DNA of 20,212 bases, taken from positions 1,658,863 to 1,679,074 of the forward strand of contig LS998015.1 in the NCBI GenBank assembly GCA_900498245.1, written 5' to 3'. Positions within the stretch are counted from its first letter, which is position 1. Each line of letters starts with the position of its first letter. Source of the stretch: Candidatus Zixiibacteriota bacterium (GTDB taxonomy: Bacteria; Zixibacteria; MSB-5A5; GN15; PGXB01). Under the pieces are notes generated by a model. That model saw only the letters and a program-made list of their open reading frames with translations, had not been told where the DNA came from and ran no database searches. Positions 4,242-5,314 of the stretch are shown one piece after another. The translations under genes were made by a program, and so were the position numbers.

Positions 4242-4329
4242 GGAGAGGTGTCCGAGCTGGTCGAAGGAGCATGCCTGGAGAGCATGTAAACGAGTAATCG
4301 TTTCCTGGGTTCGAATCCCAGCCTCTCCG
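4242..4329 (+). tRNA. tRNA-Ser (anticodon GGA)
   Basis: A complete class II tRNA cloverleaf of 88 nt. The acceptor stem is GGAGAGG with CCTCTCC, and the D stem is TCC/GGA. The anticodon stem is CATGC/GCATG around the loop CTGGAGA, giving anticodon GGA, which reads the serine codons UCC and UCU. A long variable arm, AAACGA-GTAA-TCGTTT, is typical of serine tRNAs. The T arm is CTGGG-TTCGAAT-CCCAG. The discriminator base is G, as expected for serine. The 3' CCA is not encoded, so it must be added by CCA-adding enzyme. The gene is plus-strand, between the fetAB operon and the dapF-like gene string. Confidence 0.97.
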
Positions 4330-4360
4330 CTTTATTTTGCGCAGACAATATTTAGATGTT

Positions 4361-4380: not shown

Positions 4381-4485
4381 ATGCCCCAGCCCAATCTTTC
4401 GGCGGTAAGACTAAAATGGCTTTTTTCTTTACAACCGTCTTCAAATGAATATCTTGACGACCATGAAAAGATTACCCTTTTTTAA
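4381..4485 (+). CDS. 34-codon leader ORF overlapping the dapF-like gene
   Basis: A short ORF with a strong SD, starting MPQPNLSAVRLKWLFSLQPS and ending EKITLF before TAA. It is too small to assign by homology. It overlaps the first codons of the dapF-like gene in another frame, stopping 20-40 bases inside it, an arrangement suited to termination-reinitiation coupling. Its last codons cross a run of six T bases. Reading +1 at that run would join the leader directly to the KYQCLGNDF segment of the DapF-like protein. This could mean a programmed +1 shift, a natural frameshift in an older longer N-terminus, or an assembly error in the homopolymer. The peptide is not rich in lysine codons, so a classical lysine attenuator is not supported. 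Whether it is translated is unknown. Confidence 0.4.
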   Translation: MPQPNLSAVRLKWLFSLQPSSNEYLDDHEKITLF

Positions 4486-5314
4486 ATATCAATGTCTTGG
4501 CAACGACTTCATAGTAATCGATCAAATCAGAAAGATCAGGTCGATTTCCAAGCCGGAAAAGCTGGCTATCGAGATTTGTTCAAGGAATTTCGGCGTGGGA
4601 GCCGACGGTATTCTGCTATTATCTCGTTCAAAGAAGGCCGACTGCAGGATGGAGATATACAATTCTGACGGAAGTTGGGCTGAAAAATCGGGAAATGGTT
4701 TGCGGATAGCGGGTGCCTATTATTATTCGAGTTATTTTCGTAAGAAGAAGATCTCCATTGAGACGGCCACAGATATTGCCGGAATCGAGATCAAGCGGGC
4801 AGATGGCAATGAATTCGGCATCAAGGTATCACTGGGGCGGCCCAAATTCGAAGCGAACAATGTTCCGGTAAAATCGAAATATAAATTTCATATCAGCAGA
4901 CCGGCGAAAATTCAGGGGAGAAATATTGAAATCACGGCACTTTCGGTCGGGAATCCCCATGCGGTGATCTTTGTTGAAGACTTTGACTTTGAATGGAAAG
5001 TGATTGGGCGGGAAATTGAAAATGCCTCGATTTTCCCCCAGCGTACCAATGTAGAATTTGCCAGGGTGATCAACAGGAAAAAGGTAGAGCTCAATGACTG
5101 GGAAAGGGGCGCCGGGGCGACCGGATCATCCGGTACCGGAGCGGCGGCAGCGGTGGTGGCCGGAGCCATAAAGGGCTTGACGGAGCGCAAAGCAGAAGTG
5201 GTATTTCCGACCGGTTCACTCTATATCGATTGGTCAATCGATAACGATCAAATATATTTGACCGGACCGGTAAAATTTATCTGCCGGGGTGAATGCCTAT
5301 CCTCCGTAATGTAA
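4463..5314 (+). CDS. DapF-like protein with both catalytic cysteines replaced by serine
   Basis: A 283-residue member of the diaminopimelate epimerase (DapF) family, two-domain pseudo-symmetric fold. DapF interconverts LL- and meso-diaminopimelate for lysine and peptidoglycan synthesis, using two cysteines as acid/base pair. Family motifs are clear: LGNDFIVID near the start, NSDGS, VGNPHAVIFVED, RTNVEF and WERGAGATGSSGTG. The usual CGNG is SGNG here (serine 76, codon TCG at 4688-4690), and the usual ACGTG is SSGTG (serine 223, codon TCC at 5129-5131). Both catalytic cysteines are therefore serine, while the residues that normally hold diaminopimelate are kept. Cysteine-less active sites are expected to lose or greatly change racemisation, so annotation as an active DapF is unsafe. 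The start MKRLPFFKYQ fits family N-termini; an in-frame ATG exists at 4445. The downstream gene overlaps by 22 bases. Confidence 0.85.
   Translation: MKRLPFFKYQCLGNDFIVIDQIRKIRSISKPEKLAIEICSRNFGVGADGILLLSRSKKADCRMEIYNSDGSWAEKSGNGLRIAGAYYYSSYFRKKKISIETATDIAGIEIKRADGNEFGIKVSLGRPKFEANNVPVKSKYKFHISRPAKIQGRNIEITALSVGNPHAVIFVEDFDFEWKVIGREIENASIFPQRTNVEFARVINRKKVELNDWERGAGATGSSGTGAAAAVVAGAIKGLTERKAEVVFPTGSLYIDWSIDNDQIYLTGPVKFICRGECLSSVM

Follow-up and report, generated by a model that had tools for sequence, protein, structure and literature searches.

A DapF-family protein of Zixibacteria with serine at both catalytic cysteine positions

Introduction

What might a DapF-family protein do when both cysteines of its catalytic acid/base pair are serines? 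The question is raised by a dapF-like gene in the genome of a Candidatus Zixiibacteriota bacterium (GCA_900498245.1), within a stretch of 20,212 nucleotides (contig LS998015.1, positions 1,658,863 to 1,679,074) that we call the window and whose numbering is used for the features below. A preliminary description of the window had reported both replacements, and we confirm them: in the encoded protein, P0001, Ser76 (TCG, 4688-4690) and Ser223 (TCC, 5129-5131) stand where diaminopimelate (DAP) epimerase has its catalytic cysteines. P0001 is a member of the DapF family by sequence, by fold and by its binding residues. It lacks the defining catalytic cysteines and the usual pathway context, so it is not to be classed with ordinary DAP epimerases. 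From comparisons of sequence, modelled fold and pathway genes, we give roughly even chances to its being an active DapF-fold epimerase in which Ser76 and Ser223 form the acid/base pair and which acts, for MurE, on a DAP-like diamino diacid or on DAP itself.

Identity and active site of P0001

The host genome is a single contig of 3.5 Mb, 98.9% complete and of Zixibacteria type; its closest named relative is a Zixibacteria bin whose DapF is 73% identical to P0001. An alternative in-frame ATG at 4445 would extend the protein to 289 residues, and the closest relative starts at the equivalent of 4463. P0001 scores 241.3 bits against the DapF equivalog model TIGR00652 (cut-off 114.65) and 171.5 bits against PF01678 (cut-off 34.7), the sole Pfam model returned. 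The search for a second, canonical dapF that the preliminary description had proposed found none in this genome, where P0001 is the only DapF match. The gene and its active-site features are as follows.

4463..5314, + strand: dapF-like gene encoding P0001 (283 residues), an open reading frame with no internal stop, matching TIGR00652 and PF01678
4502..4504, + strand: Asn14 (Asn11 of H. influenzae DapF), a substrate-contact position invariant in 116 aligned DapFs
4607..4609, + strand: Gly49, equivalent to Gly47 of Anabaena DapF (Gln44 in H. influenzae), proposed to permit lanthionine (PMC12039745)
4661..4675, + strand: NSDGS, substrate-binding loop with Asn67 (motif reading, alignment)
4685..4687, + strand: Lys75, adjoining Ser76 (alignment)
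4688..4690, + strand: Ser76, codon TCG, in SGNG; replaces catalytic Cys73 (H. influenzae numbering) and caps the N-terminus of helix 77-92
4949..4960, + strand: GNPH, within VGNPHAV, substrate-binding motif with Asn164 (motif reading, alignment)
5042..5059, + strand: RTNVEF, substrate-binding motif with Asn196 (motif reading, alignment)
5102..5116, + strand: ERGAG, substrate-binding motif with Glu214 and Arg215 (motif reading, alignment)
5129..5131, + strand: Ser223, codon TCC, in SSGTG; replaces catalytic Cys217 and directly precedes helix 224-236

The four substrate-holding motifs named in the preliminary description are thus all present, and the 74 Ser/Ser proteins of the phylum sample described below have, without exception, Asn14, Asn67, Asn164, Asn196, Glu214, Arg215 and Thr220. 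An AlphaFold2 model of P0001 (predicted local distance difference score 86.1, predicted template modelling score 0.85) has the standard DapF fold. Its best structural match is Anabaena DapF (9mro; Z 36.9, root-mean-square deviation 1.9 Å over 268 residues), followed by the Arabidopsis (3ejx, Z 35.8) and H. influenzae (1gqz, Z 32.8) enzymes. Both serines lie at helix N-termini in the model, as the cysteines do in DapF, a placement credited with keeping the pKa of those cysteines low (PMC12039745).

Other members of the fold match less well. P0001 reaches 16 bits against the histidine racemase model NF052224 (cut-off 400) and 85.7 bits against the bifunctional DapF/glutamate racemase model NF038284 (cut-off 350). 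It falls outside the PhzF/YddE group, PhzF structures aligning at 12% identity with a Z of 26, well under DapF. No proline racemase model matched it, Pfam returning DapF only and NCBIfam the DapF type plus the weak histidine racemase match, and proline racemase superfamily structures share 11-14% identity with it in structural alignment.

The serines across the phylum

DapF proteins were gathered from 132 genomes of the phylum and both motif residues were read. Among 108 near-full-length proteins, 74 are Ser/Ser, 18 Cys/Ser, 4 Ser/Cys and 12 Cys/Cys; no third residue occurs at either site. By family, f1-f5, f11 and f19 are Ser/Ser, f9, f10, f12, f13 and f14 Cys/Ser, f7 Ser/Cys, and f6, f8, f15 and f16 Cys/Cys, f18 being mixed. 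Almost all genomes of the order to which P0001 belongs have the Ser/Ser pair, the exceptions being L014 (Cys/Ser) and L021 and L051 (Ser/Cys), the latter two from the same bin. That bin, G058, carries them as diverged dapF copies on separate contigs, by duplication or because the bin is mixed. DapFs from outside Zixibacteria, a small sample, were Cys/Cys wherever both motifs were readable. In family f17 no DapF match was found in any of four genomes (G119-G122, 92-94% complete), which have MurE, with the motif DNPR where read.

The gene is under purifying selection, with pairwise ratios of non-synonymous to synonymous substitution (dN/dS) of about 0.03-0.19, which agrees with the kept function that the preliminary description had read from the intact full-length frame. 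The codons of both serines vary synonymously among TCA, TCC, TCG and TCT, with AGC seen once, and the residue itself is constant. Sequencing error was rejected on the grounds that relatives across the order carry the same pair with this codon variation, and a pseudogene on the grounds of conservation and dN/dS. The related statement that neither codon is one step from cysteine is true of TCG, two substitutions away, but not of TCC, a single substitution from TGC.

On a tree from which the motif columns had been left out, at least 3-4 Cys/Ser changes are needed at site 1 and at least 7 at site 2. Trees with a single origin were rejected by the approximately unbiased test for Ser/Ser (p = 1e-4), for serine at site 2 (p = 1e-76) and for serine at site 1 (p = 0.0015), on groups picked after the data had been seen and on a tree with long branches. 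The check that the preliminary description had proposed, whether double-serine members form a clade, thus gives an order-wide state that clusters by lineage, but not one clade. L014 and L021/L051, lying within the Ser/Ser clade of the order, are apparent returns from serine to cysteine. Since changes between the two residues are repeated and include these apparent returns, while the binding residues are kept and dN/dS is low, cysteine and serine are seemingly interchangeable in a maintained enzyme.

Inside this order, Ser76 co-occurs with Trp72, Lys/Arg75 and Ile82. Residue 75 is basic in 63 of 65 proteins of the order and non-basic in the Cys enzymes; it could assist ionisation of Ser76, though other Ser76 families manage without it. 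As a general requirement, a basic residue before Ser76 was rejected, for it holds in this order only and not in f5, f7, f11 or f19. Cys39 was considered as a substitute catalytic cysteine and likewise rejected, as it is invariant in the Ser/Ser proteins but also common in Cys/Cys DapFs, in the motif ICDR; no other invariant cysteine was found in Ser/Ser proteins in the alignment of near-full-length DapFs.

The DAP pathway, MurE and gene neighbourhood

Profile and tblastn searches underlie the pathway absences reported here. Two models were used for DapB; they found it in none of the 132 genomes and in 11 of 14 controls. DapA was found in 14 of 14 controls and in four of the genomes, two of them above cut-off, leaving 128 in which it was undetected. 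The genome of P0001 yielded no DapA by profile search, and tblastn agrees. A joint tblastn query (DapA, DapB, DapL, LysA, MurI and the neighbouring aminotransferase) recovered a MurI homologue and the aminotransferase from this genome. It revealed no true DapL there, the DapL-region matches having the identity (about 25-32%) that generic aminotransferases would be expected to show. A bypass through Ddh was rejected, no match above cut-off being found in 40 genomes. A 182-bit match in the genome of P0001, also the LysA-region tblastn match, was rejected as LysA because it adjoins a spermidine-synthase-like gene and fits lysine/ornithine decarboxylases much better (302 vs 103 bits); it is a decarboxylase of that type. 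As DapA and DapB are undetected, the substrate of P0001 is itself in doubt; true DapL, Ddh and LysA were likewise not found, and DAP from the normal route is probably not what the protein acts on.

LysA above cut-off is limited to f6, f7, f15 and f16, lineages with the DapF cysteine at site 2. In f6, f15 and f16 it lies within a murein-peptide salvage cluster (L290, also L288, L296 and L297), which in f16 (L290:5519-15031, G116) comprises carboxypeptidase S13, LysA, alanine racemase, NlpC/P60, LD-carboxypeptidase, a dipeptide epimerase-type enolase and an amidase. This setting suggests that lysine is made from scavenged DAP, which would explain the presence of LysA without DapA and DapB.

The MurE of P0001's genome reads TSDNPR, and DNPR occurs in every MurE of the phylum with an extractable motif. 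DNPR binds the free carboxylate of meso-DAP (PMC3829189), and the MurE enzymes of E. coli and Anabaena work well with meso-lanthionine too (PMC12681378). The MurE motif was rejected as a guide to DapF state, DNPR being found throughout, including the DapF-less f17. The GKGHE motif of MurE is GKG(A/S/D/C/I)E in P0001's order (families f1-f4, L115-L144) where read, and the other families read keep the histidine.

Lanthionine is relevant to DapF as well. The Anabaena and Arabidopsis enzymes turn it over as fast as DAP and the H. influenzae enzyme does so poorly, a difference for which the authors named Gly47 versus Gln44 (PMC12039745). The corresponding position, 49 in P0001, is glycine in all 108 Zixibacteria DapFs, and the two solved structures nearest to P0001 are those of the lanthionine-accepting enzymes; both points speak for the epimerase reading set out below.

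In 28 of 41 loci, from both Cys and Ser lineages, dapF has a LysN/ARO8-type aminotransferase gene upstream of it. This gene is the immediate upstream neighbour across most of the phylum (L272:6926-8146) and is 19.5 kb upstream in the genome of P0001 (L295:3615-4835, G000:C1:1642612). It was rejected as a clue to the substrate, aromatic and tryptophan genes also being nearby. DapF as the source of D-glutamate was rejected in view of the MurI homologue. A tRNA-Ser (GGA) gene is found at 4242-4330, about 130 bases upstream of dapF.

Comparison with known systems

With DapF (TIGR00652; 9mro, 3ejx and 1gqz) P0001 shares family, fold, substrate-binding residues and acid/base positions at helix N-caps; it differs in having two serines for two cysteines and in coming from a genome that yielded no DapA or DapB. 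The H. influenzae DapF mutants C73S and C217S (2q9h, 2q9j) have the same fold and each carry one of the two serine replacements, but they are engineered single mutants, whereas the pair in P0001 is natural and order-wide. Natural serine general bases occur in the proline racemase superfamily, which has the overall fold of P0001, in a Ser/Cys 4-hydroxyproline epimerase and a Ser/Thr trans-3-hydroxyproline dehydratase; these enzymes act on proline-type substrates at about 13% identity to P0001, and a Ser/Ser pair is not described in the available part of the source (PMC4113996). The histidine racemase HisR of F. nucleatum (PMC11602996) is, like P0001, a DapF homologue in an organism without a DAP pathway; it differs in being Cys/Cys, at 18% identity in structural alignment, and its model matches P0001 poorly. 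The aspartate/glutamate racemases EcL-DER and MMP0739 (PMC8142540) are cofactor-independent with one catalytic cysteine naturally a hydroxyl residue, but they have a glutamate-racemase type fold and keep one cysteine, the other being threonine.

Proposed role and alternatives

If P0001 is an active epimerase, it would bind a DAP-like diamino diacid through the standard DapF residues, and the alpha-carbon held between Ser76 and Ser223 would be inverted by the serine acid/base pair. The meso product would pass to the DNPR-type MurE for peptidoglycan, and the substrate may be salvaged DAP or lanthionine rather than DAP of the normal route. We infer that the serines become basic enough through their helix N-cap positions and, in this order, the basic residue 75. 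The natural Ser/Cys pair that epimerises 4-hydroxyproline indicates that serine as one base works in this fold (PMC4113996).

Several points weigh against an active epimerase. Single Cys-to-Ser mutants of PddB retain <0.1% activity (PMC8225329), as do those of M. tuberculosis DapF as cited in the same paper, and no natural Ser/Ser racemase of the DapF fold was found in the literature searched. LL-DAP lacks a known source where neither DapA nor DapB is detected, nor was a lanthionine synthase identified. The four f17 genomes have the same MurE family and no DapF match, so that DapF is not strictly needed for a DNPR MurE. The F. nucleatum DapF homologue, in the absence of a DAP pathway, is a histidine racemase (PMC11602996).

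The preliminary description suggested that, with the cysteines lost, racemisation may be lost or a new reaction run. As the leading reading this is unsupported: orthologues of all four states (Cys/Cys, Cys/Ser, Ser/Cys and Ser/Ser) have the binding residues in common and mostly the neighbour gene too, and reversions seem to have occurred, which fits a single conserved chemistry whose acid/base residues can be exchanged. We consider it unlikely that P0001 performs another reaction on a DAP-like substrate, one serine serving as the single base for beta-elimination, dehydration or isomerisation. PhzF, which has the same fold, is an isomerase. In the proline racemase superfamily, dehydratases occur with a Ser/Thr pair (PMC4113996) and with Cys/Thr (PMC8142540). 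Yet if one base sufficed, the second site should be free to vary, and both serines are strictly kept; Cys/Cys and Ser/Ser orthologues, moreover, interconvert on the tree.

Racemisation of some other amino acid is somewhat less probable still; for it the missing DapA, DapB, true DapL, LysA and Ddh and the Fusobacterium precedent (PMC11602996) would speak; all DAP-holding residues are nevertheless kept, the histidine racemase model gives just 16 bits, and D-glutamate needs no DapF where a MurI homologue is present. The replacement of both bases, when single serine mutants of relatives are almost inactive, might instead point to a non-catalytic binding or partner protein, as E. coli DapF is for RppH (complex 6d13 in the PDB), but a scaffold should hardly be held to serine or cysteine at both sites and to an intact active site in 74 of 74 proteins, and we regard this as improbable. 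That the gene is decaying, DapF being dispensable once the standard DAP route is missing, or is a sequence error, is scarcely credible for a single intact copy across the order with such low dN/dS and serines kept through synonymous codon turnover.

Significance

Catalysis of the DapF type is regarded as centred on the thiol/thiolate pair. That a lineage should naturally be Ser/Ser is surprising because engineered single Cys-to-Ser mutants of relatives are almost dead, and neither a natural Ser/Ser DapF nor DAP metabolism in Zixibacteria was found reported in the literature searched. The phylum-wide lack of DapA and DapB further raises the question of which residue occupies the third position of the peptidoglycan peptide. 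Tentatively, and with some doubt, a phylum without DapA and DapB might build a non-DAP peptidoglycan, for example with lanthionine, in which DapF would act as a thiol-free, cofactor-independent Ser/Ser epimerase.
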